A stretch of 64,000 nucleotides of DNA from Nostoc commune NIES-4072 (GTDB lineage Bacteria > Cyanobacteriota > Cyanobacteriia > Cyanobacteriales > Nostocaceae), in assembly GCF_003113895.1 (NCBI RefSeq), contig NZ_BDUD01000001.1:2944712-3008711 (forward strand), written 5' to 3'. The notes beneath the pieces are model-generated. The model saw only the letters and a list, made by a program, of their open reading frames with translations, did no database searches and had not been told where the DNA came from. The position numbers and the translations under genes are program-made. Shown in pieces: positions 39,898 to 63,218 of the stretch (position 1 is the first letter of the stretch; each line of letters starts with the position of its first letter).

Positions 39898-39899
39898 AA

Positions 39900-42191
39900 T
39901 TAAGCTCCCTCTTCACTACTAATTAACCGTGAGTACACCCCCTCTACTTGCCACAATTCCTCGTGAGTACCTCGTTGCACCACCTTTCCCCGTTCAAGGA
40001 CGATGATTTCATCACAGTCGCGAATCGTGCTTAATCGGTGTGCAACAATTAGGCAGGTACACCCACGTCGCCGCAGATTTTGGTCAATAATTTTTTCCGT
40101 CTCGGAATCTAGGGCGCTGGTAGCTTCATCCATAATCAGGATTGAAGGATTGTTAACTAAGGCGCGGGCTATTTCTAATCGCTGTCGTTGACCTCCACTT
40201 AAATTGGCGGCTCCTTCAATTAGTTGGGCATCAAATCCGCCAGACATGGAGAAAATTACATCATCAATGGCAGCATCTTTACTAGCCCGCACTAGATTTT
40301 TATCTGGTACCGTAGTATCCCATAAAGTCAAATTTTCCCTGACAGTTCCGCCAAACATCAAAATATCTTGCTCCACCAAAGCGACAGAATTAGTTAATAT
40401 CGATTGCGGAATCTGCTTTCTAGGTTGACCATCAAAGCAAATTTCTCCCGACCAAGGTTCGTAGAGTCCGCTTACCAGTTTGGCAACAGTAGACTTGCCA
40501 GAGCCACTCCCGCCTACTAGAGCTACTCGTTGTCCAGGCTTGACTGAGAGGCTAAAGTTTTCAATCAGAGGCGGATCTAAACGGCTATAGCCAAATGTGA
40601 CATTCTCTAATTCGACGTACCCCTGTAATCTAGGCAGAGGAGATGAGGAAGACAAAGAGATTTTTTCTTCCCCTGCTTCCCCTGCTTCCCCTGCTTCCCC
40701 TGCTCCCCTGCTCCCCTGCTCCCCTGCTCCCTCTGCTCCATCAATCGGGTTATCCAACACATCATCTAGGCGAATCAAATTGCCCTCCATTTCCTGGAGG
40801 GTGCTACCGAAGTTCACAAGATTATTAACAGGTAGCAAAAAGCTCTGCATCAGTCCTTGAAATGCTATAAGCATTCCGATGCTGAGGTGTCCATCCATCA
40901 CTCGTAAACCACCTACAACCAATAAAGCCATTGATGAGAGTGAAGACAAAAGTGTAGGCAATATTGAGAAAGTTTGGTTTGTCACCTCCAGTTCTTGCTG
41001 AGAATTAATCGCCTTGGTGTAGTACCCTGACCACCGCGAAAAGAAATCTGATTCTAACCCTGATGCTTTGAGAGTTTCTATACTTTGGAGAGCCGCTATC
41101 GATGCACCCGCAGCTTTACCATACTCTTGGATTAATCGCTGATTAGCATCGACGCGCTGACGGGATATCCACTGCAAAGTTAAGACATTTACAGCAGCAA
41201 AACTAGCTACAACCAAAGTCAGTACCCAGTCATATTGAAGCATGACTAAGGCGTAAAAAATCACCATTACTGCATCGATAACTGTAGTCGCCAATCGCCC
41301 TGAAAGCACATCAGCCACTTGGTCGTTGAGACTGGTACGGTTACTAATTTCACCCGCGAACCGTTGAGCATAAAAACTAACGGGTAATCGCAGGATGTGC
41401 CAGAGAAAACGGCTGGACATTCCCACAGACAGCTTGACTTTCAAGCGGCGTAGATAGCGCAACCGCAGCAGTGTTAATACTCCTTGGAGGACTACTGCGA
41501 TCGCCATTGCTAATAACAACGGACGCAACCAGTGCTGCCGTCTTTGCACCAGGATTTCGTCTACAAACACTTGACTAAATACTGGTACTGCCAGCCCGAT
41601 AAGTGTTAACAAAAATCCTGCTATCAGACAGTAAATTAAGACACCAGTAGCACCCCGTAGCCGTGACCATAGTGATAAAATTAGGCTGGGTTTACGGCCC
41701 CCTTTGGTGAACTCCGGCCCTGGTTCCATGACCAGCACCACTCCGGTATACCCCTCGTCAAACTCCTGCCGGGATACCTTTCGTGGTCCCGTACCTGGGT
41801 CATTAATATAGACCCAACTAGAACTAAATCCTTCTACTACCAAAAAGTGGTTGAAGTTCCAGAACACAATATAGGGAGGGCTTAACTCTGGAAGTTGATC
41901 CAGTTCCTTTTTAAAGCCTTTTGCAAGGAGTCCATAGCTTTTGGCAGCTTTGAGGACGTTAGAAGCTTTGCTACCATCGCGGGAGACTCCACACTCTCGA
42001 CGCAGTTCTGGCAGAGGCACAATCCGACCATAGTAACCCAAAATAATTCCTAAAGCTGCGGCACCGCATTCCACTGCCTCCATTTGCAAAAGCGTGGGTG
42101 TCTTTACCCGCTTAAGAGGATTTTTCAGCAGGTTTTGCAGGTACTGCAAAAGATTAATCGGTGTCACTAATGAAAAATTAGTAGATACCAC
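39900..42191 (-). CDS. NHLP-family peptide exporter with C39 peptidase (peptidase/permease/ATPase)
   Basis: A protein of 763 residues from a GTG. The C39 peptidase domain (about 30-160) has catalytic Cys42 (VECGAA), His115 (NFNHFLV) and Asp131 (INDPGTG), so it should cleave leaders after the double-glycine motif. Six membrane helices (about 185-470) and an ABC ATPase follow (GGSGSGKST near 555, NLSGGQRQR, ILIMDEATSALD). The linker between them carries a 9-bp tandem repeat in DNA (about 40672-40735) coding Gly-Glu-Ala triplets. All four precursor genes in this locus carry a GG motif, so this is the likely maturation and export enzyme. The 5' end overlaps the HlyD gene by 14 bp. Confidence 0.93.
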   Translation of the reverse strand: MVSTNFSLVTPINLLQYLQNLLKNPLKRVKTPTLLQMEAVECGAAALGIILGYYGRIVPLPELRRECGVSRDGSKASNVLKAAKSYGLLAKGFKKELDQLPELSPPYIVFWNFNHFLVVEGFSSSWVYINDPGTGPRKVSRQEFDEGYTGVVLVMEPGPEFTKGGRKPSLILSLWSRLRGATGVLIYCLIAGFLLTLIGLAVPVFSQVFVDEILVQRRQHWLRPLLLAMAIAVVLQGVLTLLRLRYLRRLKVKLSVGMSSRFLWHILRLPVSFYAQRFAGEISNRTSLNDQVADVLSGRLATTVIDAVMVIFYALVMLQYDWVLTLVVASFAAVNVLTLQWISRQRVDANQRLIQEYGKAAGASIAALQSIETLKASGLESDFFSRWSGYYTKAINSQQELEVTNQTFSILPTLLSSLSSMALLVVGGLRVMDGHLSIGMLIAFQGLMQSFLLPVNNLVNFGSTLQEMEGNLIRLDDVLDNPIDGAEGAGEQGSRGAGEAGEAGEAGEEKISLSSSSPLPRLQGYVELENVTFGYSRLDPPLIENFSLSVKPGQRVALVGGSGSGKSTVAKLVSGLYEPWSGEICFDGQPRKQIPQSILTNSVALVEQDILMFGGTVRENLTLWDTTVPDKNLVRASKDAAIDDVIFSMSGGFDAQLIEGAANLSGGQRQRLEIARALVNNPSILIMDEATSALDSETEKIIDQNLRRRGCTCLIVAHRLSTIRDCDEIIVLERGKVVQRGTHEELWQVEGVYSRLISSEEGA
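40672..40735. repeat. Low-complexity tandem repeat (CCCCTGCTT / CCCCTGCT units) within the exporter gene
   Basis: About four CTTCCCCTG 9-mers are followed by CTCCCCTG 8-mers. In frame they encode the flexible linker before the ATPase domain. The decayed paralogue has a different low-complexity tract at the same place (about 35865-35915), so this linker is a slippage hot spot. Confidence 0.75.
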
Positions 42192-43623
42192 TGACAGACC
42201 TCAGAATAGGTAAAACGAATGTGATTGGCGCTCGCTCTTCTACCTTGACTCGCACAGATGTAGTCGTTCCAGAAGAGATTTTTAGCTGCGGCCCATTGGA
42301 TGAAGACCATTTGTAACCGCTAAAAGTGGTAGAATCTGGCTGCAAGTCAGCAAAGACTTGAATAAGTGCCTCTTGCTTCTCACCCACTAGACCTGTCACT
42401 ACTTCGGGATTACCCACTACACTAGCGGCTGCTTCTCTGGTAATGGGAAATGGTGAGACAGTGGTAATCTTACCGACAATACCGCCAAAGCGTTCCCGCT
42501 TCACGGTTTGGGGTGTAATTTGCAGCGTCATACCTGGTTGAATTTTCTTGCCTTCTCCAACCGGGAAATAGGTGATACCAACCATTTTGCTAGATGGATT
42601 TTCTGCATCTATACTGCCTAAACGGGTTCCGGCATCAATCACTTGCCCTGTTGTCACAGTGATTTCGAGAATACGTCCTGAGTGTTGAGAGATAATCTGG
42701 CTGTTATTGCCTAATTGTTGTTCTAGTCTGGCAATCTCTCGCTTGACTTCTTGAATCTCATTTTTGCGGGTAGTTGCAGTTTGTAGGTCTTCTTGAGCCA
42801 GAGTTGCTACTTTACTGTTTTGTTCTTGCAATTGGGCTTGAATGTTTTTGATTTCGTTCAGATTTGAAAGATATTGCTGTTGTGCGTCTGCTTCCTTAAG
42901 GTCTAATTGTTTCAACTGAGATTGTGCTTCATCAATACTTGCACGCGCATCGTCGTATTGTTGCCGTGCTTCTAAGACCACATCATCAGGAATCGCCCCT
43001 TCTTTTAAAAGCTTCTGGCGGTTTTCTAATCTCTTTTTGTGAGTAGGAAGTAGCCCTTGGAGTGTTTGTAAACGTCGTTGTAAGTTGAGGCGATCGCGCC
43101 CAATAGACACTAGCCCTTTCTCCCTCAACACGGGTGTCAAATCCTGCACAATCTTGAGTCTTTGCTCAAGAGTTGAGCGTTGCTCTTGGATTGCTTTTGT
43201 ATCAAGCTGCTGACGCTGCCCTTGTAACAAACTAGCGTTGCGATCCTGATCCTCTAGTTGGACTAGTTTAGCTCGCGCTAGTTGTAATTGCTTACGCAGA
43301 TCAACTTGGTCAACTGTTGCTAGTACATCTCCCTTTTTGACCACATCTCCAACATTGACATTTAGAGCAAGTAACTGCCCTGCACCTTTCGATTGCAACG
43401 GCAAAACGTTGCGTGGATAAATTAGTACCCCTTGACCTTCTACAGTGATGGGAATCCGTCCATAGATACTCCAGACCACGGCAACTGCTACCAAGGAACC
43501 CAAAGCTGTTAAAGGCAGCCAGCTTTTAGGACTGACTACTTGCATTAGTTGGTCTAGCCTTTCAGGTGAAGATAAACGCTCTAATGACTCTTTTCGGAAT
43601 AAATTTTGATTTTGTTCGACCAT
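42178..43623 (-). CDS. NHLM-system HlyD-family secretion protein
   Basis: A protein of 481 residues. One membrane anchor (about 36-55), a lipoyl half (VNVGDVVKKGDVLATVD), a long coiled coil (about 110-310), a second lipoyl half (SGRILEITVTTGQVIDAGTRLG) and a beta-barrel. It is a membrane-fusion partner for the two ABC subunits downstream; the TIGR03794-type family is tied to NHLM bacteriocin clusters. It would bridge the ABC exporter to a TolC-like outer-membrane pore. ATG at 43623 with 158 bp to the upstream cNMP-domain gene. Confidence 0.9.
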   Translation of the reverse strand: MVEQNQNLFRKESLERLSSPERLDQLMQVVSPKSWLPLTALGSLVAVAVVWSIYGRIPITVEGQGVLIYPRNVLPLQSKGAGQLLALNVNVGDVVKKGDVLATVDQVDLRKQLQLARAKLVQLEDQDRNASLLQGQRQQLDTKAIQEQRSTLEQRLKIVQDLTPVLREKGLVSIGRDRLNLQRRLQTLQGLLPTHKKRLENRQKLLKEGAIPDDVVLEARQQYDDARASIDEAQSQLKQLDLKEADAQQQYLSNLNEIKNIQAQLQEQNSKVATLAQEDLQTATTRKNEIQEVKREIARLEQQLGNNSQIISQHSGRILEITVTTGQVIDAGTRLGSIDAENPSSKMVGITYFPVGEGKKIQPGMTLQITPQTVKRERFGGIVGKITTVSPFPITREAAASVVGNPEVVTGLVGEKQEALIQVFADLQPDSTTFSGYKWSSSNGPQLKISSGTTTSVRVKVEERAPITFVLPILRSVSGIY

Positions 43624-48900: not shown

Positions 48901-49038
48901 TCAATCCCAAAGAGTTGCAGTAATCTCTGCCATATCCAAGGACTGCTTTGCTTTAACAAGAACTTTTAAAAAGGCTCGTCGGTTTTGCCAACCAGAACGC
49001 GGTAGGATCGGAGACTGAGCATCCGAAACACTATTCAA
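48901..49038 (-). CDS. Candidate small protein, 45 aa, translationally coupled to LanM1
   Basis: This ORF fills the gap between LanM1 and the Nif11-Cache gene. It starts at a TTG that overlaps the LanM1 stop as TTGA, the same arrangement as the ParA/HExxH and YcaO/SagB junctions in this locus. The peptide (MNSVSDAQSPILPRSGWQNR, then a basic helix and MAEITATLWD) has no match that I recognise. Support is positional only: operon, coupling, and fit to the gap. It could equally be chance. Confidence 0.35.
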   Translation of the reverse strand: MNSVSDAQSPILPRSGWQNRRAFLKVLVKAKQSLDMAEITATLWD

Positions 49039-52000
49039 AGTGCCAACAGTAGTACTGAAGGTAAAATCTCTGGGTATGCTAACCGTAACAGTCCGTAGCC
49101 AATCCCAGCAGTTCCTTGGAAAAAACTGGGGCTAAACACAGAAGCAGGTAAGTTGGCAAACAGTTGATATCCCCCTATTTGTTCTGCTCGTGCTACCGCC
49201 AGAGAAGCTTGGAGGTGTGCAGTTTTGAACAATTCTTCTCGTCGCAAAGTTTTCGCAGCTACTAACAGCACGTCAATCCGACCAAAGTTACCGCAGCATA
49301 GATGGTCTATCCCCTGCAAGCCATACTTGTGAGTAGTCTGCAATGCCGCTTCGATATCTTGACGAATTTCCTCAGTGTCTAAAAACTCCAGACTGCCTAA
49401 GCGGGCCAAGCCAATCCCAGGAGCGCCATGACACCAGCTGACCATAAACCCAGGTTGACCGTTTTGTTGAGTAAAAGAACGAAAGTCGGGCCAGTTGGCA
49501 GCAGAGGTCTTAAAGACGCTACGTTCATAGGTAATTCCCTCAACAGATGCTTCTTTGTAAGCGCATAAGTGCGTCGCCCAATAAAGTCGCAGCAGGGCAT
49601 AGGCAATGCCAGCTGCCCCGTGAGAAAAACCTGTTAACGGTTTCTCCTTAAAATTTTTCCAAGCTCTTGGGGAACCATCAACACTAATTTGATGCGCTAG
49701 CAAATGCTGGCCGCAGGCGATCGCTTTTTCTAAAACTGCTGGCTCTCCTGTCTCGTCATAAAGTGCCAATAACCCTAAAATAGCTCCCCCTGCCCCCGCC
49801 ATCACGTCAAATTGTCGATCCGCAGCAATGACTTCCGGAGCAATCAGGTTCGCGGCACGCCGAGCATCTTCTAGGAGCGCCGATTCCTTAAGGAATTGGC
49901 TCATTTTGACCAGGCAATAGATGATAGAACCAAGTCCTGAAGCGCCCCCAATCCCGATTGCCCTTACAAATTTTTGGGCAGAATCCGCATCGGCTGTTTG
50001 GATAAATTTCCGTAAAGACTGTATTGCCCCCAAAGCTAAATCACGGAACTGGCGATCGCCCTTAATACGTTCTAAAGCTGCTAGAAACAAAGCGATGCCG
50101 CAATTACCATCATAGAGACTATGACCCAATATCTGGAGTTGAAACCGTTCAGCGTTGGGAACAAAGCCAAAGCCTATCCAACTGACGCTGCCATCGGCTT
50201 CCCTAATGGCTCGTTCCTGGATTGACTGAGCAATTGCTTGCGCTGAGTAGAGCAACTGTTCGGCACTCAAAAGTCTAATGTCTGAGAAATCAACACTAGT
50301 AGCAGAGGATGTGTTGGCTGCTTTAGCCTGCTTAGTTGATCTATTGTGCGCCATCTTAGCATAAAAAGCGCCCTGAATAATCCCCACTTGCTGCACTAAA
50401 TCTGTCTCATTAAGCACTCGCAGCCGCTTCAGGACCTGGCTGTGACTTGATTCTTTAAAATACCGTTCAATCGGTTGTTCTAGCCCAACGGTCAAGTCAT
50501 CACTGTTGGATTTGGCTCCAAAGTAGGGAATATCTAGCTGCTCCATTGCCCTCAGTTCTGATCGCAAAATCGGCCAAGCTTTGGGCTTATCCTCACCTGT
50601 GAGAAAAGCTCGACTGAGGATATCTAGTTCAATGCTGCGGTCTACCCCATTTTGCAGGAATTCGGGGGCAAGACTGTTTTCTAAAACTACGCTATAAACC
50701 CGAGTGGCGCGGAAAACAAACCGCACTTGCTGTGCTTGCAGCTTTGCCAAAGGGCCATTAGCCAAAAGTAGTGTTGAGCGCTGCGCTATTAGGAAGTGAT
50801 ACATCTGCTCAAACCCTTCGACTAACTCATTGATGTAGTTGTTAGGTGATAGGGCAACTCCATTTAAAATGGCTTCATTTGCCTTGCTTGGGAATGTAGT
50901 CTTCTCAAACCTCTTGTGCATATCATCCGTATTGACAGACTTCCATCGCTCCATCAAAGCGGTGGCTTGTGGGCTAACACTGCCCAAGCCGCTGCCATCA
51001 TAGACCATGAGGTTATCTTTGATAAATTTCCAGCGCGGCAGTAGCCCACTGCGGAGGACCGAGTCAAACAGCTGTTGAGCAGCAGTAATAGCCCCTGTCG
51101 CTTCGAGTGAGTCGGCGAACTCACTCGCCTCATGGTGCATTAGGGTTTCCATGTCAACCAGCACTAGATGTTCACCGCAGGCAATTAAATTCTCGTGGTG
51201 GCAGTCAGTCCCTTGCAGGAGATACAGAACGTACAGCAGCATTCCTGCCCGTTGATAGAAGCGCTGCGCTGCAAGTGCATCCTCAATCGGCAGTTGCTCG
51301 ACATATTCCACCCAGCCATAAGTTTGGCGATCGCTCACTTTAAGCACTTTAAAAGGTAAAGGCACGCCATGCTGATTGCACCAGTCTAGAAACTGGTTAT
51401 GGGCCACTTCTAAGCCTAAGTTTTTGGGTTTGTAGACTAGCTTTAGCCCAGACTCAAACTCGATCACAATCACAGAGCGTCCCCGATTGTGAGGGTCAGA
51501 TAGATTTGGGCGGATTTCAATAACTTTTCCTAACTGGGAATCAGGGTATGGAGAAGACAAGGAAGAGCGAAATTCCTCCCGATCAGCCTCTGCCCCTTTA
51601 CTCCCTTGCTTTGGTAGGAACAGTTGCTGAATTTCAGCTTTATCAGTTTTGAGGCGTTGCACAAACTCTACCATCGCTTCCACCCACAAATCAATTGCAG
51701 TTGCAACTAACCTGCCAAGCACTGGATATTTCTGGAAAAAAGCCAGCAGCCCATCTTGCAGGAGTTTCTGCACGAAGGCGTTGTAATGAGCCTTGCTCTG
51801 GCTGCCTGTTGGCTCTTTTACCAGCAAGTTAAACAAGTTGTGTCCTAGAGGACGAAAACAGGAAAATTCCAATTCCAAGGTTTTCGTACACAGATTCACC
51901 AATTGTTGGAGCAAGCTGCGTTCTAAACTCAGGTAAGCTGCAAAAGAGAGCAGTTCCAGGAGAAGATGGTTTGAGTATAATGAAGCACAACCAAGACTTG

Positions 52001-52424
52001 TGAGTAATTTCTGCCGCGCTACCAAGATGGCAGGCAGCAGTACGTCTTCAAAGGGTAGCGGATTTTTCGGCTCTATGGGGAGTTTGTCGGGGTTAGTAGC
52101 GTCTGGGTGCAAGCTAAAGTCTGTGCCAGTTTGAATAATCTCACTCAAAATTTCTGCCCAGCTTGGCAATGGGTAGACTTCAGCCAGATGCACCGAGCCT
52201 AAGGCATGACGCACTTCATCAATATCCAACCCATCCCACAAGAGCCGCTTCTGGAATTTTTCCCAGTTCCCTTGGGCAACCACCTGACACCAGTGCGCTA
52301 TGCGCTCATCAATCGCCTGCTGTTCGCTCATTTGGTCTGCGTCAACCCCGAACAATCCATTGCTGAGACGTTCATATAGAGAGCTGGCGAAGGCAACAAT
52401 CTGTGCTATGTCGGATTTCGTCAT
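49035..52424 (-). CDS. Type 2 lanthipeptide synthetase LanM (complete dehydratase and cyclase), LanM1
   Basis: A protein of 1129 residues from the ATG at 52424; a longer frame to 52562 lacks family similarity. The N-terminal DUF4135 dehydratase/kinase-like half has LVYKPKNLGLE, GTDCHHEN (near 405) and LVDMETLMHH. The C-terminal LanC-like cyclase (about 780-1129) has FSHGAAG (His near 934), SWCHGAPG (Cys near 998) and HLCCGNFGR (near 1043). The second site is Cys-Cys-Gly rather than Cys-His-Gly, the ProcM-like variant with a third Cys as zinc ligand, which in known enzymes goes with broad substrate range. It would phosphorylate and eliminate Ser/Thr and close lanthionines in precursors such as 53066-53449. 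It heads the exporter operon. A small palindrome, CGAGTGAGT...ACTCACTCG, sits in frame at 51098-51121. Confidence 0.93.
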   Translation of the reverse strand: MTKSDIAQIVAFASSLYERLSNGLFGVDADQMSEQQAIDERIAHWCQVVAQGNWEKFQKRLLWDGLDIDEVRHALGSVHLAEVYPLPSWAEILSEIIQTGTDFSLHPDATNPDKLPIEPKNPLPFEDVLLPAILVARQKLLTSLGCASLYSNHLLLELLSFAAYLSLERSLLQQLVNLCTKTLELEFSCFRPLGHNLFNLLVKEPTGSQSKAHYNAFVQKLLQDGLLAFFQKYPVLGRLVATAIDLWVEAMVEFVQRLKTDKAEIQQLFLPKQGSKGAEADREEFRSSLSSPYPDSQLGKVIEIRPNLSDPHNRGRSVIVIEFESGLKLVYKPKNLGLEVAHNQFLDWCNQHGVPLPFKVLKVSDRQTYGWVEYVEQLPIEDALAAQRFYQRAGMLLYVLYLLQGTDCHHENLIACGEHLVLVDMETLMHHEASEFADSLEATGAITAAQQLFDSVLRSGLLPRWKFIKDNLMVYDGSGLGSVSPQATALMERWKSVNTDDMHKRFEKTTFPSKANEAILNGVALSPNNYINELVEGFEQMYHFLIAQRSTLLLANGPLAKLQAQQVRFVFRATRVYSVVLENSLAPEFLQNGVDRSIELDILSRAFLTGEDKPKAWPILRSELRAMEQLDIPYFGAKSNSDDLTVGLEQPIERYFKESSHSQVLKRLRVLNETDLVQQVGIIQGAFYAKMAHNRSTKQAKAANTSSATSVDFSDIRLLSAEQLLYSAQAIAQSIQERAIREADGSVSWIGFGFVPNAERFQLQILGHSLYDGNCGIALFLAALERIKGDRQFRDLALGAIQSLRKFIQTADADSAQKFVRAIGIGGASGLGSIIYCLVKMSQFLKESALLEDARRAANLIAPEVIAADRQFDVMAGAGGAILGLLALYDETGEPAVLEKAIACGQHLLAHQISVDGSPRAWKNFKEKPLTGFSHGAAGIAYALLRLYWATHLCAYKEASVEGITYERSVFKTSAANWPDFRSFTQQNGQPGFMVSWCHGAPGIGLARLGSLEFLDTEEIRQDIEAALQTTHKYGLQGIDHLCCGNFGRIDVLLVAAKTLRREELFKTAHLQASLAVARAEQIGGYQLFANLPASVFSPSFFQGTAGIGYGLLRLAYPEILPSVLLLAL

Positions 52425-53065: not shown

Positions 53066-53070
53066 CTAAT
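52974..53070. mobile_element. 97-bp MITE with TAGGACTTA(C/T)GCAAA ends
   Basis: Terminal inverted repeats ATAGGACTTATGCAAAAC and GTTTGCGTAAGTCCTAAT enclose a non-coding core. The right end supplies the TAG stop codon of the precursor gene 53066-53449. A related half-element forms the 3' end of the Nif11-Cache gene at about 47150. Confidence 0.75.
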
Positions 53071-53449
53071 CGAATATATCATCGACTACGTTTACGATGC
53101 AGCAAATTGCCATGGTATTACCACCTGTGCCTGCCGGAGGTGTAGGTGGCGGCGTCGGCGGATTCGGCGGAGGCGGATTGTTAGTGCCCCCGGCCACAGC
53201 ATCTAACTCCTCCTCTAATAGCTGTGAAGCTTCCTCACCATTTTCCACTGCTTCTTTAGCTGCGGTGTCAAGTGCGCTCCCTACTTGAGCGCTGGTGAAA
53301 CTGTAGCCTTTCTCTTTACCCAGCTCCACAACCAAGCTTATATAAGCTTCACGGTTCGGCGCTGCTTTCAGCTTTGATTGCAACTCTTGGTCTTGAGATG
53401 CCATTTGGAAAAACTGCTGTATACTTTCTTGCATCATTTTTTCAGCCAT
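53066..53449 (-). CDS. RiPP precursor A: Nif11-type leader, proline-rich spacer and di-Cys core
   Basis: A protein of 127 residues from the ATG at 53449, which has an AAGGAG ribosome-binding site about 8 nt upstream; a longer frame to 53518 lacks this. Residues 1-88 are a Nif11-like leader (IQQFFQMASQDQELQSKL, GYSFTSAQVGSAL) ending in LLEEELDAVAGG. The 39-residue core is TNNPPPP...TPPPTPPAG followed by TGGNTMAICCIVNVVDDIFD. One Thr three residues before Ile-Cys-Cys could form a methyllanthionine; the proline run is unusual. The stop codon TAG is the end of a MITE, so the ancestral core may have been longer. It lies upstream of LanM1 on the same strand and is probably its substrate. Confidence 0.85.
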   Translation of the reverse strand: MAEKMMQESIQQFFQMASQDQELQSKLKAAPNREAYISLVVELGKEKGYSFTSAQVGSALDTAAKEAVENGEEASQLLEEELDAVAGGTNNPPPPNPPTPPPTPPAGTGGNTMAICCIVNVVDDIFD

Positions 53450-53957
53450 GATGAATACTCCTTGTTGTCGTAGTTTTTTTTGGAAAACTACGGTTGACAA
53501 CATCGTTTTGTTTGTCAACTGTTATCAATATAGACGGCATTACTAATTAGAACAATATAGAAATATTTAGAAAAATTCAGTAATTAATTGGTGGCAGTTT
53601 AAAGCTGTATCAACAGTTTGAAAATACCTGTTAAAACAGGTAGACCACAAAATCCGATATAACACCGATTTAGTAATCTGAATTATGACAAAAAAACCTG
53701 TTTTATTAGGTTTCAGCAAGGAACATTTTGTTGTAAAAGACATTAAAACAGAGTTTATCAGTCTTGTGTTTTATTAATGAATTAGTGTTCTATAAGCAAA
53801 CATTTGTAAAGCGAGTAAACTCCCACAACTCTGACAAGTAAATAGCAAAGTTGTGGGAGTTTGTCGAGGTAAGATCGGCGATCGCTACTTAAAGGGCATT
53901 ACCTTGGTCGCAGTGTCAAGTATCAGAACGCCTCAAGTCATAGAAGTAGCTTAAGTG
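53450..53957. other. Regulatory interval between precursors A and B
   Basis: AT-rich, no convincing gene. It holds the palindrome TACCTGTT-AA-AACAGGTA (53625-53642) and a second inverted pair AAACCT...AGGTTT (about 53694-53713). A 30-codon plus-strand ORF, 53685-53777 (MTKKPVLLGFSKEHFVV...), exists but has no ribosome-binding site that I trust. The 3' region of precursor B (GCGATCGC at about 53879) is also here. The promoter of precursor A should be at the low-coordinate end. Confidence 0.45.
53625..53642. promoter_or_regulatory. Palindrome TACCTGTT-AA-AACAGGTA upstream of precursor A
   Basis: Perfect 8-bp arms with a 2-bp centre lie about 175 bp upstream of the precursor A start. The size and symmetry fit a dimeric regulator site, or a weak terminator for precursor B. 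No regulator gene is identified in the window. Confidence 0.35.
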
Positions 53958-54233
53958 TCATCCAAAGACATTATCGACCATGTTGCCTACTGCATCCGGT
54001 AGTTCCACTATATCTCCGGCCGGCCCAGGTATGTTCTCAATAGGAGGGGGTGCTTGGTTTAGTTCCTCTATCGTGCTAAGTCCTTGTGTTAGCATCGAAA
54101 GAGGGGTTCCCCCAGAGACAGCATCCAAGTTTTGCTCCGATAGTTCTTCCCCTGGCAGGTTGGCTAATGCACTGTCATCGGGCATTGTGCTAGGACGCAT
54201 GTCTTGGTTTTCAATTTCATGATTGTTGTCCAT
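53958..54233 (-). CDS. RiPP precursor B: short acidic leader with GG motif, Cys-free core
   Basis: A protein of 91 residues with a GAGGAAC ribosome-binding site before the ATG. Residues 1-42 are an acidic leader ending in LSEQNLDAVSGG, the same C39-type cleavage motif as the other precursors, but not a Nif11 domain. The 49-residue core TPLSMLTQGLSTIEELNQ...PPPIENIPGPAG...NVFG contains Ser and Thr near its N-terminus but no cysteine, so lanthionine or thiazole formation is impossible within it. The possible fates are dehydration only, or export unmodified. It lies between the two LanM genes, on the same strand as both. Confidence 0.7.
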   Translation of the reverse strand: MDNNHEIENQDMRPSTMPDDSALANLPGEELSEQNLDAVSGGTPLSMLTQGLSTIEELNQAPPPIENIPGPAGDIVELPDAVGNMVDNVFG

Positions 54234-54767: not shown

Positions 54768-57700
54768 TCATTCACATAATAAAACAGAGGGCAACAAAGT
54801 AGGATAGGCAATTCGTAAGAGTTGATAACCAATGCCAGTAGTGCCATGAAAAAAGCCTGGGTTGTAAACTTTTGGCGGTAAATCGGGGAAAAGAGTAAAT
54901 GTACCTTGAGCTTGGGCTTGGGTTACTATGTGGGTAACTACTTGATGAACAAACTCTAAAAGGTCTGGTCGGTTTAGCTTTTGGGCGGCTACCAGCAAAG
55001 TCTCTATCCGACCTAAATTACCCCAGCAGAGATTATCCACATTTGAGATCGCAAATTTTATAGTGGTTTCTAAGGCAATAGCAATCTCCTGACGAATTTC
55101 TACAGTATCCAAAACGGATAATCCTCCCAATCGCCCTAATCCAATTCCAGCAGCGCCATTTGCCCAACTTACTCTCAAACAAGGTTCTTCATATCTCAAG
55201 TCAGGCCAATTTTGAGCTTCAGTACAGAAAACACTTTGTTCATAAGCGATCGCTTCATTCGCCGCATCAAGAAACCGGGAATCTTGCGTCACTGCATATA
55301 ACCGCACAAGAGCATAGGCGATTCCTGCTGCGCCTTGGGAAAAACCAGTCAGTTGTTTGCCTGCTGAGTTTTTCCAAGCCTTAGGGCGTTTGTCAATATT
55401 AGTTTGATGCTTAAGCAGATGCTCACCGCAGGCGATCGCCATTTCCAAGTAAGTTGATGCTGGCAGTGCTAAAAGACTAAGAATTGTTCCTGCTGCACCT
55501 GCCATAATGTCGAAAGATTTGTCAGCAGCAATCAGATCTGGAGTAATTAGGGCAGCAGCTTTAAGGGCATCTTGCAGTAGTGCTGGTTCTTGCAGAAGTT
55601 GGCTAATCTGTGCGAGGGCGTAGGCGATCGAACCTAGCCCAGTAGTTCCACTCATCCCTACTTGCCTTGTCAATCTCGCTGCATTTTCAGGGTTTGAATC
55701 TTGAAGAACTTTGCATAGAGGCTGTAAAGTTCTTAAAGCTAACTCATGCCACTCTGAGTTACCTGTAACTTTTGCCAAAGCTGCGAGGAATAGAGCGACA
55801 CCAGAACTACCATCGTATAAACTAACACCCAGACTTTGAAGCTGGAAACCTTGGGTATTAGCTCTATATTTCAAGCTTATCCAGCTAACGCTATCATCAA
55901 CGGCGCAAATAGCACGTTGTCGCAGATCTACAGCTATAGTAATTGCCTGTTGCACTAACTGTTCTTTTGTCAAAGGCATTACTTCTTTTGCAGGAGTGCT
56001 AACTACCTGAAAAGAAACCAGATTCGGTTCCCTCACAAACCGTGAGTAGAAAGAACCCCTGATGATTTCTATTTGTTGAGCCAAGTCAGCTTCACTTAAA
56101 GTTGAAAGCTGCCTCAACACTCGGCTGAAGCTTGGTTCTTCAAACAGTTCTGGGATGATTAGACCTTTCGGTAGCTCAAGGCTATCGCTTGAGGATAAAA
56201 CAGTAAATATGGGGATGTCTAATTGTTCCACAGCTTGTAATTCAGCTGCCAGTATCGACCAGAAAACAGGCTTTTGTTCCCACGTTAAAAAAGCTCGACT
56301 CAAAACATCAAGGGTAATACTGCGATCAATACCAAATCGCAACAAACTTGGAGCATAAGAGTTTTGTAGAATACGATGATAAATTCTGGTAGAGCGAAAC
56401 ACATACCGGACTTTCTGATGTGCCAGAATCATCAAGGGACTTGTTGGGGCTAAGAGAACTGCTTGATGGGAAAACAGCAGGCGGTACATCTGCTCGAATC
56501 CCGCTACCAAATCTTCTAAGTAATCGTCTGGGGAAAGAGAAATCCCTCTGATTGTCGGCACATTGGCTTCCTTGAGGACAACTGTTTCATAACCCAAATT
56601 CATCGCATCTGTGTTGATGTTTTGTATACGAGTAGCCAACACCTTCTGCTCCTCAACTCCTCCCAAGCCACTAAGATCGACTGTTAACTGGTCATTTTGG
56701 GATATGCCCCACTGGGGTAGAATCCAGGTACGTAATACTGATTCCGCTAGCTGCTTTTCTACCAACATTGTCGCATCAGACTCGCTCGAACCCATACTTT
56801 TATTTCGATGATGCAATAGGGTTTCTAGATCCACTAATACTGGCTGTTCTCCATTGGCAATTAAGTTTCCAGAGTGGCAGTCTGTCCCTTCTAAGGTGTG
56901 GATTAGGCACAGCAACATTCCTGAGCGTTCGTAGAAGCGTCGAACAGCGCTTTCATCTTCACAAGGCTGCGATTCCACATATTCCACCCAACCGTAGGTA
57001 GAACGGTTCAGGACTTGGATAACTTTGAAGGGTAAAAGGGTAGTGTGGCTGTTGCACCATTCCAGAAAATTATAATAGGCAACATCTAAGCCAAAATCTT
57101 TGGGTTTGTAAACTAATTGCATTCCCGTGTCAAAAGTGAGAGCAATCACAGATCTTCCCCGATTGTGGGGATCTGACAAGCCTGGTTTTACCGCCACAAC
57201 TTGCTTTAATGGTGTGTCTCCCCCGAAGCATTGCTCTATATCAGACCAGTCTGTTGCTAATGAGTTGAGGAATTCGGTGGTGGCTTCTACCCAGAAATCA
57301 ATTGCAGTGGCTACTAGTCGTCCCAAGACACTATATTCCTGAAATAAGGACAGTAAGCCATCTTGAAATAATTGATCGATAAAGGCATAGTACTTTTCCT
57401 TGCTGTTAGGACTCTTGACGCAGAGTAATAAGAAGTCGCGCACGGCGTTTCCCGATGAGCGAAATGTTGAGAATTCCTCCATCAGAGTCGAAGAACACAA
57501 AACGCTAAGTTGTAACACAAGCTCTCGCTCTAACGCTGCCATTGCACTGTCTGTCAGTAATTTTAAGCGATCGCCTACTTGTGCCAAAAGTAGTTGTGTT
57601 GCTACTTGCAAGCAGGGAACATAGATTGGCTCAAAGGGAATCGGCTTTTCTGGGTTCAAGTAACGGTAAGGATACCAATGCTTGTTTGCAAAGTTCTGTG

Positions 57701-58004
57701 CAGTCTGGATTACCTGTTCGAGAGTAGTTGCCCATGAGGGTAGGGGTTGCTGCTCATTAGAGTAAGCATTAACCAACAGAGGGCGAATAGTGTCAATGTC
57801 TAATCCAAGACACGCTAAACGCCTCTGGAATTTGGCTAATTTGCCCTGAGCCACAACCTGACACCATCGCTCTAAGCGTTCTGAAATCTGTGTTTCATCT
57901 TTGTCAGTGACTTGAGGAAGAGAAGAATTATTTAAACGTTCTGTTAGAGTACTAGCTTTAGCAACAAGTGATGTCAGATTTAAGGTGTAATTATGTGGTG
58001 ACAT
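54768..58004 (-). CDS. LanM-type synthetase with degenerate cyclase domain, LanM2
   Basis: A protein of 1078 residues from the ATG at 58004 (MSPHNY); a longer frame to 58085 is unsupported. The dehydratase half keeps LVYKPKDFGLD, GTDCHSGN and LVDLETLLHH. In the LanC-like half, all three zinc/active-site motifs differ from LanM1: GFSQGAAG instead of GFSHGAAG, SWANGAAG instead of SWCHGAPG, and NLCWGNLGR instead of HLCCGNFGR. I read these codons directly (CAA, GCA-AAT, TGC-TGG). The fold looks otherwise preserved and the gene has no stops, so it is not simply decaying. It is expected to dehydrate Ser/Thr but not to cyclise. It diverges from precursor C across a 391-bp spacer. Confidence 0.9.
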   Translation of the reverse strand: MSPHNYTLNLTSLVAKASTLTERLNNSSLPQVTDKDETQISERLERWCQVVAQGKLAKFQRRLACLGLDIDTIRPLLVNAYSNEQQPLPSWATTLEQVIQTAQNFANKHWYPYRYLNPEKPIPFEPIYVPCLQVATQLLLAQVGDRLKLLTDSAMAALERELVLQLSVLCSSTLMEEFSTFRSSGNAVRDFLLLCVKSPNSKEKYYAFIDQLFQDGLLSLFQEYSVLGRLVATAIDFWVEATTEFLNSLATDWSDIEQCFGGDTPLKQVVAVKPGLSDPHNRGRSVIALTFDTGMQLVYKPKDFGLDVAYYNFLEWCNSHTTLLPFKVIQVLNRSTYGWVEYVESQPCEDESAVRRFYERSGMLLCLIHTLEGTDCHSGNLIANGEQPVLVDLETLLHHRNKSMGSSESDATMLVEKQLAESVLRTWILPQWGISQNDQLTVDLSGLGGVEEQKVLATRIQNINTDAMNLGYETVVLKEANVPTIRGISLSPDDYLEDLVAGFEQMYRLLFSHQAVLLAPTSPLMILAHQKVRYVFRSTRIYHRILQNSYAPSLLRFGIDRSITLDVLSRAFLTWEQKPVFWSILAAELQAVEQLDIPIFTVLSSSDSLELPKGLIIPELFEEPSFSRVLRQLSTLSEADLAQQIEIIRGSFYSRFVREPNLVSFQVVSTPAKEVMPLTKEQLVQQAITIAVDLRQRAICAVDDSVSWISLKYRANTQGFQLQSLGVSLYDGSSGVALFLAALAKVTGNSEWHELALRTLQPLCKVLQDSNPENAARLTRQVGMSGTTGLGSIAYALAQISQLLQEPALLQDALKAAALITPDLIAADKSFDIMAGAAGTILSLLALPASTYLEMAIACGEHLLKHQTNIDKRPKAWKNSAGKQLTGFSQGAAGIAYALVRLYAVTQDSRFLDAANEAIAYEQSVFCTEAQNWPDLRYEEPCLRVSWANGAAGIGLGRLGGLSVLDTVEIRQEIAIALETTIKFAISNVDNLCWGNLGRIETLLVAAQKLNRPDLLEFVHQVVTHIVTQAQAQGTFTLFPDLPPKVYNPGFFHGTTGIGYQLLRIAYPTLLPSVLLCE

Positions 58005-58395: not shown

Positions 58396-58722
58396 ATGAG
58401 TACACAAGCTGTTAATCAATTCTTGCAAAAAGTCACTGAAGAACCACAACTTCAACAGGAGTTCGCTAAAGCCCTAGAAGCAGGAAATAACCTACAAGCT
58501 GCTACCAATTTGGCTGCCAAACACGGTTATCAATTTACTCCCGATGAACTTCAGGCAGAAATTCAGAACCGCCAGAGCGAATTTCAACAAAGACAAGATG
58601 CAGGACAACTGAATGAGGAGGAACTAGAAGCTGTCGCAGGCGGATTGTGTACTCCTGTCATAGGAATAGTTGGTGCAACCATAGGAGGAGCCAATTTAGT
58701 AACTAAGCTCACTGAAAATTAA
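58396..58722 (+). CDS. RiPP precursor C: Nif11-type leader, single-Cys hydrophobic core
   Basis: A protein of 108 residues; AAGGAG lies 9 nt before the ATG. Residues 1-83 are a Nif11 leader (VNQFLQKVTEEPQLQQEF, AAKHGYQFTPDELQAEI) ending in NEEELEAVAGG. The core LCTPVIGIVGATIGGANLVTKLTEN has one Cys right after the cleavage site in a Cys-Thr-Pro motif, several Thr, and glycine-spaced hydrophobics (GIVGATIGG). The leader is nearly identical to that of precursor D. With YcaO/SagB genes close by, a thiazole or methyloxazole at Cys-Thr is plausible; LanM2 dehydration of the Thr residues is another option. Target enzyme not proven. Confidence 0.85.
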   Translation: MSTQAVNQFLQKVTEEPQLQQEFAKALEAGNNLQAATNLAAKHGYQFTPDELQAEIQNRQSEFQQRQDAGQLNEEELEAVAGGLCTPVIGIVGATIGGANLVTKLTEN

Positions 58723-59134: not shown

Positions 59135-59476
59135 ATGACCACAGAAGCTGTTAATCAATTCTTGCAAAAAGTCACTGAAGAACCACAACTTCAACAGGAG
59201 TTCGCTAAAGCCTTAGAAGCAGGAAATGACCTACAAGCTGCTACCAATTTGGCTGCCAAACACGGTTATCAATTTACTCCCGATGAACTTCAGGCAGAAA
59301 TTCAGAACCGCCAGAGCGAATTTCAACAAAGACAAAATGCAGGAGAACTGAATGAAGAGGAACTAGAAGCTGTTGCGGGTGGATTCTGTACTCCTGCTCT
59401 GATTGGAACACTTATTGGTCCTGTAGTCGGAGGAGCAACCAAAGTAGCAACCCACATCGCTGAACAAAATAGTTAA
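59135..59476 (+). CDS. RiPP precursor D: Nif11-type leader, single-Cys hydrophobic core
   Basis: A protein of 113 residues, a tandem duplicate of precursor C with the same AAGGAGATTTCTGTT leader. The leader (1-83) differs at only a few positions and ends NEEELEAVAGG. The core is FCTPALIGTLIGPVVGGATKVATHIAEQNS: again a Cys-Thr-Pro right after GG, then glycine-spaced hydrophobics. The core has diverged much more than the leader, the usual pattern for RiPP families. It is convergent with the YcaO/SagB operon, whose 3' end is 117 bp away across a shared hairpin. Confidence 0.85.
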   Translation: MTTEAVNQFLQKVTEEPQLQQEFAKALEAGNDLQAATNLAAKHGYQFTPDELQAEIQNRQSEFQQRQNAGELNEEELEAVAGGFCTPALIGTLIGPVVGGATKVATHIAEQNS

Positions 59477-59592: not shown

Positions 59593-60978
59593 CTACATTG
59601 ACTTACTACCCAACATAAATTCTCCCACCGATGATTCAGCGTAGTAATCAGTGAGTGCTGCTTTGGCAAATAAATCGGCATTACCTGAACCTAGAGCGCA
59701 AGGAGCAAGATTCATGGCAGTTGCTACCAGGTACATAGTTTGGTACAAAACGCCAACGTGCTTGAGGATCAGTGAATAGGCGATCGCTTCATATTTCCAT
59801 GACAACCGTTGAAATCGGGCAGTGAAAACAATCAAAACCTGTGGCATATCCTGCTGCCCACTGGCTCCCCAAGCATCCTTGAACAGTGCTTCTACATCCT
59901 TGGTTCTCTCACAAAGCCGTTCTAGTTGATGTGCTAGGGGATTGTAGTAATACAGTCCTGAACTAATCCCATCACATGTATTGATAACAGGATAAAGTTC
60001 CAGTTCGTACAACCCACCCCCAGATGGATAAGGACGGCTGCTGTATTCTCCATTGAGGTTTTTGACTCTGGCACTGCGATAGAGAAACTCTCCTAACTGT
60101 TGCGCAGTAATAGGAGAAGAGTGATAATTTCTGATTGAACGTCTTTCTTCCAAAACATCTGTCAAGGGAATATCAGTAGTTTTAAGGCGTTCAATATTGG
60201 GTTGATACAGTTGAATCACAGTTTTTGACATTGGGGGTTTTACAACTGGTTGCGGCTCTATTTTTCCTAAGAAACGATAAGTACCCCCGGTAGGATTGGT
60301 ATGTCTTCCCTGACGGCTACGGGTATGGAAGAGTAAATCATGAAAATCCCATTGAGCGAGAGTAGTATTTTGAACCTCTTTGTATGTTTCTTGTGATAAC
60401 ATTTGGCTAGCCAAAAGTAAGTAGAGAAATTGTTGAGCAATCTCTAGTGTGATGCCAGGAATTTCTGATACTAAATTACTACAAGATTGAGGTTGAGATA
60501 GCTTTGCAACTATTGCTACACCACGCCAATCTGGTAAAATGACTTTGGCTTTGGACAAGGGTGATTCTAATACCATTTGCCCTTCTACTTGGTGGAGATA
60601 GGCAAAGCGAGACAAGGTGAAATGTTCTTGCCAATTTACAACTGGGGCAGAAAACTCGTACTCGCATTGAGGGACAGCAGTGGCAAAAGGTAAGACTGAA
60701 TGACAAATCCAGCCTAAACTGATGAATTTTTGCAAATAGGAATGAAACTTGAGCATTCCATAAATTCCATCAGCTTGCTGCACCAGTTGTTTGAGTTCAA
60801 CCGCAGTGCCTCCAATACCGTAGAGAGTTTTCAAAGTTACTCGCAAGCCAGAGGCAGGTTGAGAAAATGTCAATTTGCGCGTACTGCTTTGGAGAATAAT
60901 TTCCTTATTTTGCGGTAATTCGACTAGAGAAATGTCCTTTCTGAAGGAGAGGGTAAAAGCTTCGGACATATCTATCAA
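59593..60978 (-). CDS. SagB-type azoline dehydrogenase (nitroreductase-fold)
   Basis: A protein of 461 residues from a TTG that overlaps the YcaO stop as TTGA; an ATG three codons later is an alternative. The N-terminal 200 residues are the winged-helix-like peptide-binding part found in long SagB proteins. The C-terminal 210 residues are the flavin-dependent nitroreductase fold (LEERRSIRNYHSSPIT, YPSGGGLYELELYPV, GLYYYNPLAHQLE, KHVGVLYQTMYLVATAMNL, LGSGN). SagB oxidises thiazolines/oxazolines made by YcaO to azoles using FMN. Gene order YcaO then SagB, overlapping, gives a complete azole-forming pair. Lys/Tyr catalytic residues of SagB were not individually verified. Confidence 0.88.
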   Translation of the reverse strand: MIDMSEAFTLSFRKDISLVELPQNKEIILQSSTRKLTFSQPASGLRVTLKTLYGIGGTAVELKQLVQQADGIYGMLKFHSYLQKFISLGWICHSVLPFATAVPQCEYEFSAPVVNWQEHFTLSRFAYLHQVEGQMVLESPLSKAKVILPDWRGVAIVAKLSQPQSCSNLVSEIPGITLEIAQQFLYLLLASQMLSQETYKEVQNTTLAQWDFHDLLFHTRSRQGRHTNPTGGTYRFLGKIEPQPVVKPPMSKTVIQLYQPNIERLKTTDIPLTDVLEERRSIRNYHSSPITAQQLGEFLYRSARVKNLNGEYSSRPYPSGGGLYELELYPVINTCDGISSGLYYYNPLAHQLERLCERTKDVEALFKDAWGASGQQDMPQVLIVFTARFQRLSWKYEAIAYSLILKHVGVLYQTMYLVATAMNLAPCALGSGNADLFAKAALTDYYAESSVGEFMLGSKSM

Positions 60979-63218
60979 AAAGGCATTGGGATTTTATTCA
61001 TTTGTTCCTCTACTAAAGGTGCTGGTAGCCAGCCCATTTTTACTGGTACGTCGTAAAGTCTTCCAGAACCAAACCGAGGCAAAAAATGTCTTAATTCTGG
61101 AACAATTACCTTCACCACATTCAGTCCAATGTCTGGGCGAGTTTGATCCAGCACCAAAGTTTCTAAATTATGCTGCTTGGCTATTGCTACACAACTGAGT
61201 ACATCTTCTTGAAGATCGTCACTACAATGTTGTGGATAATCTGTGTAAACTTTTGGCGCAAGGTGATTTGGTGTTAGGTAAGGTTGATTTGCGATCGCCG
61301 CAAATGTTAGCCATTCGTGGAGTTCCCCCTCAGTCTTTCTTGGGTATTGTGTCTCAACTCTTGTCAAGAATTGGTTCATTTCCGTCACAGCCCGCAATAA
61401 GGCTATTTTGGCATCAAAATGACATCCGTAGCCTGCGACAATTTTCTCAGCTTCATCTGTGCAACGAGAAACTGCTGCAAAGACAGGAATTTCCAAATCA
61501 GATGTCAAGTCAAGTACCCAAAATTCCCGTTTTAGGCTTTTGTAATAAGCTTGCAATTCTAGCAGATAGGGGTCTTGAAAACTAGCTAGGTCTACAGCAG
61601 GACGATTCAGGCGATTGTACCACCAAATACTGACACTATCCCGCTCGACCAATTCCATAAAGCCTTGAAGAATGGCTTCTTCCAAGGTATTGCCAGCAGC
61701 GTTGCCGTTAGAGTTGGCAAAACCAAACAAATGATCTGGGGGTAAAGGATAATTGTAATAGCATAAAGCTGTGGGCAAATATCTAAAGGTTTGTTGCGTT
61801 AAAGACCAGACTGAAGTCCACTCAATTTCCTTAGTTTCGTCAAAGGGTTCTGGGATAAAATCTACCCCAAATTTCTGATTCAAGACTGCGCGGTTTTGGT
61901 ACTGGATTGGACTAAATTGCAGACATACAGAAGGATGAATCGCGGATACCAACTGAGCATAAGTACTTTTGACCCGGATTTCGTCACCTTGATAAACTCC
62001 ACAATAGCGTTCGATCGCCTCACAAAAGCCACTAGCTCTAGCTTGTTGATCGGTCTTTCCCTTTCCGGCTGCTTTATTGTGTAGTAAATGGCGCAAGCTT
62101 TGTAGATCGTTTGCAGTACCAAAGTTGTGGACTGCTAAATAGCTATGAAGCAAGTTACTATTAGACTCAGAAGTACGTACCAAAGCACTGACGACACCTG
62201 TAATTGGGCTAATGTGATGCTCGTAATGCTTGAGAGTTTGCTCTGGGGAGAAAATTCGATGACCACCATCAGTAGTAAACTGCTTTTTACGACTTGTAAG
62301 AATAATCGGTTTGGGTTTATCTTGTCGATAAATATCTCCACAAACAGCGCATTGAGGACGTTTGGTAAGGATATGGGTTTGTAGTTCCAGCTTGGCTGAG
62401 TTAAAAGTAATAACTTTGCCTTCCAAAGTAGGGATTGAGTTTTTTTGTGTATCTTCTAGAACAATCCACTTGAGAATTTCTGTCGCTGCAAGGTTTAGCC
62501 CAATTTGGAGTGTGGAGGGCAAAATGGCACGGGAGGTGGGAATACTCTCAAGAGAGCCGAGTTGATGTCGGATTGCGGTTTCAACTTCCCGATTACCATA
62601 AAGACGTTGGGCTAAACATTGCCAACAACCTGTTCTACCTGGGTAAAAAATCGGGCCTATCCATAGTTCAACCCCAATAGGCTTGACCAGTACCCACGGT
62701 TGGTTGGCATCAATGGCTGCTTGATTGAAATCACGCAAATCTGGCTGTAGGTAATCATTGGTTAACACAACTGCTAGGGATTTTAAACCTTGATGCGATC
62801 GCGAAGAACGTACTTGAATACCTAGAGATTCCAAAGCAACAATCAAAGGCTCAGTTGGTACATTGCCAAAGGAAATTACAGATACAAAAGTTTCCTGCAA
62901 GCGGTTGAAGGACACTTGAGGGTCTATGTTGAGTAGGCTCCAGAATGCTGCAACTTCTGGGGTAAGAGAATCGACAGCTTCTGTAGTATAACCTTTGCTT
63001 TTAAGCTGGTTAAGAGCGTAGTAAATGCTAGTAAAAGGAATTGCCTTCTTCAACTTACTGATTATTTCTTCAATACTATGATTACCATCCAGCATAGGAG
63101 CTAGTTGACAGTAAAGACTTCCCTTAAGGGCAATAGAAGACTGTTCACTTAATAGATAAACAGTGTTAGGTGGAACAATTTCAACGTGAAAATGAGGCTT
63201 AAATCGTGGTTTTTTCAT
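60975..63218 (-). CDS. YcaO cyclodehydratase fused to leader-binding (E1-like) domain
   Basis: A protein of 747 residues. The N-terminal 90 residues resemble a RiPP recognition element. The E1-like partner region (about 95-330) has zinc Cys pairs GCWQC and CAVC. The YcaO domain (about 345-747) has the ATP-site motifs GKGKTDQQARASGFCEAIERY and AAGNTLEEAILQGFMELVERDS. This is the fused SagC/SagD type that makes azolines at Cys/Ser/Thr using ATP. The C-terminus is IPMPF, so the PxPxP end typical of azoline YcaOs is one residue short. Its start codon overlaps the last stop of the truncated NB-ARC frame upstream as ATGA. Likely substrates are precursors C and D (Cys-Thr-Pro). Confidence 0.9.
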   Translation of the reverse strand: MKKPRFKPHFHVEIVPPNTVYLLSEQSSIALKGSLYCQLAPMLDGNHSIEEIISKLKKAIPFTSIYYALNQLKSKGYTTEAVDSLTPEVAAFWSLLNIDPQVSFNRLQETFVSVISFGNVPTEPLIVALESLGIQVRSSRSHQGLKSLAVVLTNDYLQPDLRDFNQAAIDANQPWVLVKPIGVELWIGPIFYPGRTGCWQCLAQRLYGNREVETAIRHQLGSLESIPTSRAILPSTLQIGLNLAATEILKWIVLEDTQKNSIPTLEGKVITFNSAKLELQTHILTKRPQCAVCGDIYRQDKPKPIILTSRKKQFTTDGGHRIFSPEQTLKHYEHHISPITGVVSALVRTSESNSNLLHSYLAVHNFGTANDLQSLRHLLHNKAAGKGKTDQQARASGFCEAIERYCGVYQGDEIRVKSTYAQLVSAIHPSVCLQFSPIQYQNRAVLNQKFGVDFIPEPFDETKEIEWTSVWSLTQQTFRYLPTALCYYNYPLPPDHLFGFANSNGNAAGNTLEEAILQGFMELVERDSVSIWWYNRLNRPAVDLASFQDPYLLELQAYYKSLKREFWVLDLTSDLEIPVFAAVSRCTDEAEKIVAGYGCHFDAKIALLRAVTEMNQFLTRVETQYPRKTEGELHEWLTFAAIANQPYLTPNHLAPKVYTDYPQHCSDDLQEDVLSCVAIAKQHNLETLVLDQTRPDIGLNVVKVIVPELRHFLPRFGSGRLYDVPVKMGWLPAPLVEEQMNKIPMPF

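Follow-up and report, generated by a model that had tools for sequence, protein, structure and literature searches.

The 64,000-nucleotide stretch of Nostoc commune NIES-4072 DNA analysed here (contig NZ_BDUD01000001.1, positions 2,944,712 to 3,008,711; the window) contains two genes of LanM synthetases, LanM1 and LanM2, and the latter has lost most of the zinc site of its cyclase domain. LanM2 most likely only dehydrates its substrates, which would yield linear peptides containing dehydrobutyrine and dehydroalanine (Dhb/Dha), with cysteine present as thiazole. As a whole, the following picture seems probable to us: LanM2 is a dedicated dehydratase that has retained its LanC-like fold, a YcaO/SagB pair makes the thiazole, and LanM1 belongs to a separate pathway which uses the same exporter. 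We infer the chemistry, the removal of the leader and the order of the steps from the protein families involved; the role of the LanC-like domain and the sharing of the exporter are inferred as well. A dehydratase-only LanM2 had been suggested in the first-pass annotation of this DNA; this part of the suggestion stands as the best reading, considering the intact dehydratase, the purifying selection and the precursors with no or one Cys, while the pairing with LanM1, proposed along with it, does not.

LanM2 (minus strand, 58004-54768) comprises 1078 codons and a stop, with no internal stops, just as had been stated before, and matches the TIGR03897 profile from position 2 to position 932 of 932 with 964.9 bits (cut-off 304), i.e., as a full-length class II LanM. 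The class III profile NF038151 (LanKC) gives only 77.1 bits (cut-off 575), and LanM2 has DUF4135 instead of the lyase-kinase-cyclase architecture of that class. The contrast of cyclase motifs noticed initially (HG, CHG and CCG in LanM1; QG, ANG and CWG in LanM2) is correct by codons: Q890 (CAA), A948 (GCA, followed by N949, AAT), C993 (TGC) and W994 (TGG) of LanM2 stand where LanM1 has H935, C998, C1043 and C1044 (counted from the ATG at 52424), and in an alignment with LicM2 (6st5) the HG, WCHG and CHG motifs of the latter fall on Q890, A948 and C993-W994, respectively. The contrast needs one qualification, namely that C993 is kept. Lost are two of the three zinc ligands and the His of the HG motif, which acts as the catalytic acid (PMC9934072), so that LanM2 does not have the Cys-Cys-His/Cys triad and active-site His of a LanM cyclase.

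This loss is shared by a whole clade. The set of 122 rows, made up of LanM1, LanM2 and 120 relatives listed of at least 818 found by protein search, includes 57 rows without the zinc site (zinc-less), and these constitute one side of a branch with a support of 100 in the Shimodaira-Hasegawa-like approximate likelihood ratio test. Their commonest state is Q-A-C-W (38 rows), and W994 is present in all 57. As the state is conserved across the clade, chance is excluded as the cause of the site loss in LanM2. We also surveyed 160 LanMs, nearly all of them cyanobacterial, which were chosen by similarity to LanM2 and are therefore not a random sample; 28 of them lack at least one zinc ligand. When the motif columns are excluded, a tree of 159 rows requires at least six changes of the zinc state, most simply six losses, one of which rests on a row (L080) with doubtfully aligned motifs. 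The clade of LanM2 (the W clade) consists of 16 rows there, with support 89, and a mixed group of four rows has support 13.

Damaged zinc sites of other kinds occur elsewhere. The genome of N. commune itself has, outside the window, a third LanM (G000:C1:922477-925602, loci L002 and L176) that is also devoid of the zinc site: the region of the first Cys is missing and the second Cys is replaced by Glu, with the His of the HG motif kept; it groups with L231 and L084. In L178/L179 (contig 40 of genome G030) and in L229, two or three adjacent LanMs have differently damaged sites (QSCW, HSDC, ECSC; QYCC, YSSC) and are located among many Cys-free Nif11-type cores.

The dehydratase half of LanM2 is intact in all the residues that we checked, as the first-pass annotation had held. 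D278, H280, K300, D375, H377, N380, D392, R533 and T539 correspond in motif and spacing to residues of CylM which have been tied to phosphorylation and elimination (PMC4550811; here and below, statements on cited papers refer to the accessible portions of their texts) and represent the catalytic set of a LanM dehydratase, and all nine are identical in the 57 zinc-less rows. R533 corresponds to CylM R506 by its spacing to T512; R537 is likewise an Arg in 57/57 of these rows. In the alignment of the wider survey only three of the 33 zinc-less rows (duplicates included), the H-EC rows, deviate, having Ser for T539. The dehydratase and the cyclase halves are both under purifying selection. The ratios of nonsynonymous to synonymous divergence (dN/dS, Nei-Gojobori), which the first-pass annotation had proposed to estimate for the two halves, are 0.20/0.25, 0.28/0.15, 0.25/0.17, 0.19/0.21 and 0.21/0.26 (dehydratase/cyclase) in five overlapping zinc-less pairs and 0.12-0.26/0.09-0.24 in ten pairs of zinc LanMs. 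Relaxation of selection along the entire gene, named there as an outcome that would tell against a retained function, is not observed. As a separate observation, LanM2 and its relative from L161 are 80% identical in the cyclase half (dS 0.44) and 63% in the dehydratase half (dS 1.17), and this difference in identity and dS suggests recombination between the halves.

The putative substrates are poor in cysteine. Precursors 1 and 2 are transcribed divergently from LanM2 and match the precursors beside LanM2 relatives by 41-93%; their cores start with LCTP and FCTP, with one Cys each and no Ser ahead of it. To compare cores across the survey, a strict precursor filter was applied to 158 LanMs, with each core given to the nearest LanM and distinct cores counted (two rows were left out: L169|82, which duplicates L170|95, and L178|22, which lies on a contig that also appears as L013). 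Among 43 cores of zinc-less LanMs, 31 have no Cys, 12 have one and none has two or more, compared with four, three and 34, respectively, among 41 cores of zinc LanMs (Fisher p = 6e-17, a descriptive value only, as related cores are treated as independent). A filtered precursor is present for 15/16 LanMs of the W clade and 3/10 other zinc-less ones (18/26 altogether), and for only 27/132 zinc LanMs, so the zinc side of the contrast rests on few loci. A looser filter (160 LanMs, distinct cores), which takes in spurious open reading frames (ORFs) and counts three cores of the window in both groups, gives 42 Cys-free cores, 12 with one Cys and two with two or more among 56 on the zinc-less side, and 10, 12 and 88, respectively, among 110 on the zinc side. 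By the strict filter, 25 of the 37 W-clade cores contain no Cys at all, and therefore the formation of thiol adducts cannot be what these enzymes generally do.

The single Cys of the window's precursors coincides with azole-forming enzymes. The two Nif11 precursors beside LanM2 are followed by SagB and YcaO genes, and the same gene set is found in N. flagelliforme (L005, LanM2 96% identical) and in Nostocales HT-58-2 (L006, 87%). YcaO and SagB are intact in these three zinc-less loci, and each of the six divergent precursors there has exactly one Cys in its core, always at position 2. Two other relatives retain relics at the corresponding place, comprising residues 412-461 of SagB in genome G167 and residues 1-179 of YcaO together with 391-458 of SagB in G396, and the cores beside these relics (loci L161 and L163/L164) are Cys-free. 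Such a distribution is as expected if Cys is the azole substrate. Near zinc LanMs, YcaO occurs in 3/132 cases (LanM1 of the window and two LanMs sharing one contig, L065/L205) and SagB in one, again LanM1 of the window.

The proposed pathway would thus run as follows. LanM2 would phosphorylate Thr and Ser residues in the cores of precursors 1 and 2 and eliminate the phosphate to give Dhb/Dha, without lanthionine formation; the adjacent YcaO and SagB would convert the Cys at core position 2 to a thiazole; and the peptidase-bearing exporter (39900-42191, TIGR03796) would cut the leader at GG. The LanC-like domain could be kept as a folded part for substrate handling or for dehydratase activity rather than as a zinc cyclase. 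Zinc-ligand mutants of a LanM retain dehydration (Paul 2007, as cited in PMC11356792), and CcaM dehydrates only when its zinc-less cyclase domain is attached, the fusion being required (PMC10676384); by analogy, LanM2 may need its LanC-like domain for dehydration.

Thioether formation without zinc, in the manner of class III LanKC and with the help of remodelled residues (C993 and H1053, for example), is quite unlikely in our opinion. Class III enzymes do cyclise without zinc (PMC10604976), the cyclase half of LanM2 is under purifying selection, and in the 122-row alignment position 1053 is His in 42/57 zinc-less rows and Gln in 57/65 zinc rows (in the survey of 160 LanMs it varies among zinc rows). 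However, the prevalence of Cys-free cores speaks against this activity, as do the absence of C993 from 17/57 zinc-less rows and the replacement of the active-site acid in LanM2. C859 and H862 were also considered as replacement ligands and rejected because they are frequent in zinc and zinc-less groups alike. Structure models were of no help: the predicted model of LanM2 has a mean predicted local distance difference test score (pLDDT) of 80.6 and values below 50 at 943-946, 950-954 and 988-994, i.e., at the former zinc loops, which might be taken for a sign of site loss, but the control model of LanM1, obtained by the same procedure (mean 62.9), likewise falls below 50 in the surroundings of its intact site (976-1004 and 1038-1043), so that model confidence is uninformative on ligand replacement.

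Some other addition catalysed by the LanC-like domain, for instance one of the lysinoalanine type, in which the amine of Lys would add to Dhb/Dha, must be regarded as very doubtful. Lys is present in 35/37 W-clade cores, and in 31/37 it lies within the last five residues, compared with 27/41 and 6/41 zinc cores; KW forms the end of 24/37 W-clade cores, with L006, L218 and L235 among the loci concerned, and of 1/41 zinc-LanM cores. The pair Q890/H1053 occurs in 37/57 zinc-less rows, the zinc rows having H890/Q1053 in 57/65. Still, neither precursor core of the window ends in KW, this terminus may serve as a signal for export or recognition, and the chemistry is conjectural. A broader idea, to which we assign a low probability, is that the LanC-like domain of the W clade, in which the last repeat has gained H1053, Q890 replaces the His of the HG motif and Trp occupies the metal site, has been repurposed either for recognition of azole-containing cores or for making amine rings from Lys to Dhb. 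If true, lanthipeptide cyclases would have in the W clade a widespread relative that works without metal and forms links through nitrogen.

As to the division of labour between the two synthetases, in which LanM2 would dehydrate and LanM1 close the rings in trans on the same substrates, we consider it unlikely, and such trans-cyclisation very unlikely. It is true that both genes are located in one cluster, that LanM1 keeps the full site and that precursors 1 and 2 hold one Cys each. Nevertheless, a second LanM is absent from six of the seven long-flank regions of relatives (genomes G167, G396, G623, G713, G803, G796 and G647) and from 36.6 kb in HT-58-2; the N. flagelliforme region extends just 1.4 kb beyond LanM2. 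Among 11 genomes picked for holding a zinc-less LanM, this LanM is the only DUF4135 protein in five (G167, G796, G647, G368 and G119, completeness 99-100%). In G167, the genes that trail LanM1 in the window come immediately after LanM2 (identities: Nif11-Cache-HAMP protein 92%, MinD-like 94%, DUF7005 86%, cyclic nucleotide monophosphate (cNMP) protein 97%, HlyD 93%, and the two ATP-binding cassette (ABC) transporters 92% and 91%), LanM1 and peptide B being absent there. Precursor A has a core with Cys-Cys and shares only about 30% identity with precursors 1 and 2, leader included, and 28-39% with the relatives' precursors, and it is the probable substrate of LanM1 itself; the six single Cys, moreover, coincide with YcaO/SagB. 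LanM1 is thus probably a neighbour acting in a pathway separate from that of LanM2, and together with precursor A it would form a lanthipeptide pathway served by the same exporter. Finally, that LanM2 is decaying, non-catalytic or a kinase only is hardly credible: two of the three zinc ligands are lost, but the frame is open, the elimination residues are retained, both halves are under purifying selection and the clade is conserved.

Several points weigh against a dedicated dehydratase with a separate LanM1 pathway. Loss of ligands is no proof of lost cyclisation, since zinc is dispensable for ring closure by class III enzymes; a different site could be made up of C993 and H1053; and the dehydratase-only activity that we ascribe to LanM2 is predicted from sequence evidence. 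The mean dN/dS is somewhat higher in both halves of the zinc-less LanMs (0.226/0.206) than in the zinc LanMs (0.183/0.145). The association of zinc loss with Cys-poor cores comes down to only four independent pairs on the tree, three of which agree and one disagrees, far from significance. Single-Cys cores without a YcaO gene found in reach exist in L173 (one), L013 (one) and L187 (two, short and doubtful), and there are two further ones, in L174 and L116, on short contigs. In G803, the exception among the long-flank regions, a zinc LanM lies 11.5 kb from the zinc-less one, which also favours trans-cyclisation; this zinc LanM has a precursor of its own, with a Cys.

The remaining features of the locus are collected in Table 1. 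Peptide B has one other protein found to resemble it, P0122 (52% identity), the two sharing the C-terminal part IENIPGPAGDI.ELP; we do not propose it as a Cys-free substrate of LanM2 because in P0122 the part that follows GR, which stands in place of GG, contains a single Ser and lacks Thr. Beside the export genes, at 47013-48869, there is a sensor-like protein in which a Nif11 domain, similar to the leaders of RiPPs, is fused to Cache and HAMP, the one with the 92% identical counterpart in G167. In HT-58-2 the locus includes a metallo-beta-lactamase-fold protein (L006:13758-15221) and an orphan protein of 611 amino acids (L006:19057-20892), which are found in 5/10 W-clade loci with enough flank and in 0/109 zinc loci; a search of the window's genome with the former gave no match.

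Table 1. Features of the LanM2 locus and its surroundings in the window
Feature	Position	Strand	Evidence
LanM2: class II synthetase, DUF4135 dehydratase and LanC-like domain without zinc site	54768..58004	-	PF13575 440.9 bits, PF05147 202.1 bits
Q890: place of active-site acid His (HG motif)	55335..55337	-	codons and LicM2 alignment
A948-N949: place of first zinc Cys and next residue	55158..55163	-	codons and LicM2 alignment
C993-W994: place of second and third zinc ligands; C retained, C/H replaced by W	55023..55028	-	codons and LicM2 alignment
H1053: His typical of the zinc-less clade, mostly Q in zinc LanMs	54846..54848	-	alignment of 122 rows
Precursor 1: Nif11 leader, GG, core LCTPVIGIVGATIGGANLVTKLTEN (one Cys)	58396..58722	+	TIGR03798 40.7 bits, cut-off 32.3
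Precursor 2: Nif11 leader, GG, core FCTPALIGTLIGPVVGGATKVATHIAEQNS (one Cys)	59135..59476	+	TIGR03798 41.3 bits, cut-off 32.3
SagB/ThcOx-like peptide dehydrogenase	59593..60978	-	TIGR03605 184.8 bits, cut-off 78.4; PF22767
YcaO cyclodehydratase with leader-binding region	60975..63218	-	TIGR03604 266.9 bits, cut-off 219.25; TIGR03882 159.8 bits, cut-off 36.9
LanM1: LanM with complete H/C/C/C site	49035..52424	-	TIGR03897 999.7 bits (longer ORF from 52562)
Precursor A: Nif11 leader, core ending AICCIVNVVDDIFD, start codon uncertain	53066..53518	-	PF07862 42 bits; TIGR03798 27.9 bits, below cut-off 32.3
Peptide B: precursor-like GG peptide, Cys-free	53958..54233	-	no Pfam/NCBIfam family at E 0.01
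Export set: two NHLP-type ABC transporters and HlyD	36982..43623	-	TIGR03797, TIGR03796, TIGR03794 above cut-offs

Zinc-less LanMs and Cys-free cyanotins are already published, and dehydrazoles and nostatin A are close to the LanM2 system, so the novelty claimed in the first-pass annotation was overstated. In Pseudanabaena galeata CCNP1313, the LanM OA858_24670, with Ala, Met and Trp for its zinc ligands, adjoins a Cys-free Nif11 precursor, and the authors infer that it does not cyclise (PMC11356792, 2024); this is a single locus, no YcaO/SagB is mentioned in the accessible text, and LanM2 differs in keeping one Cys ligand and in having precursors with one Cys. Cyanotins (PMC7268733, 2020) are cyanobacterial precursors with Nif11 leaders encoded beside LanM; their cores are diverse and in some cases Cys-free. 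The precursors of the LanM2 locus have the same make-up. Cyanotins were named from the precursors, and the accessible text does not mention zinc-site loss. Dehydrazoles are made with CcaM/LanMbC, a zinc-less DUF4135 dehydratase beside YcaO and a dehydrogenase, an arrangement also found at the LanM2 locus, and the products have dehydroamino acids without lanthionine, as proposed here (PMC10676384). According to its description, however, CcaM is fused to a class III cyclase and acts on Ser before azoles, and its precursor has a nitrile-hydratase-like leader, whereas LanM2 matches the class II profile through its last position and has Nif11-leader precursors with one Cys and no preceding Ser. By profile matches (by description only for CcaM), no class III type cyclase domain is present in LanM2, and precursors 1 and 2 do not have a core rich in Ser, Thr and Cys in which Ser precedes the residues that form azoles.

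Nostatin A, a Nostoc product with azoles and Dhb/Dha, has a LanM-like proposed dehydratase, NstG, beside a cyclodehydratase and an oxidase, but differs in its nitrile-hydratase-like leader, Ser/Thr/Cys-rich core and radical SAM enzymes (PMC11583998). The LanC-like protein of Synechococcus UW179A, LanM-related, located beside YcaO and proposed as a dehydratase, as LanM2 is, has Trp at the position of CylM H349, whereas LanM2 retains this His as H377 (PMC10783134). A survey of DUF4135 proteins (PMC11251773) included some with an undefined cyclase triad ('D' and 'Unk'), with all nine dehydratase-triad combinations reported, D-Unk among them; its cyanobacterial cases are from Leptolyngbya and Oscillatoria. 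CA_C0082 of Clostridium acetobutylicum is also a LanM-like protein without the zinc site, but unlike LanM2 it lacks the dehydratase residues as well and is linked to Agr signalling (PMC10301443). Among the search hits in an open-licence library and in the accessible portions of the papers we did not find the clade, its repeated origin, the accompanying loss of Cys or the YcaO/SagB relics described.

In general, LanM genes are annotated as makers of lanthipeptides. The state of the zinc site and the number of Cys in the cores mark those cyanobacterial clusters which probably produce linear dehydrated peptides instead, some of them with one thiazole. That the metal site has been lost repeatedly beside Cys-poor substrates amounts to a natural experiment on the coevolution of enzyme and substrate, and because purifying selection acts on a seemingly dead cyclase domain, the second role of this domain can be tested.

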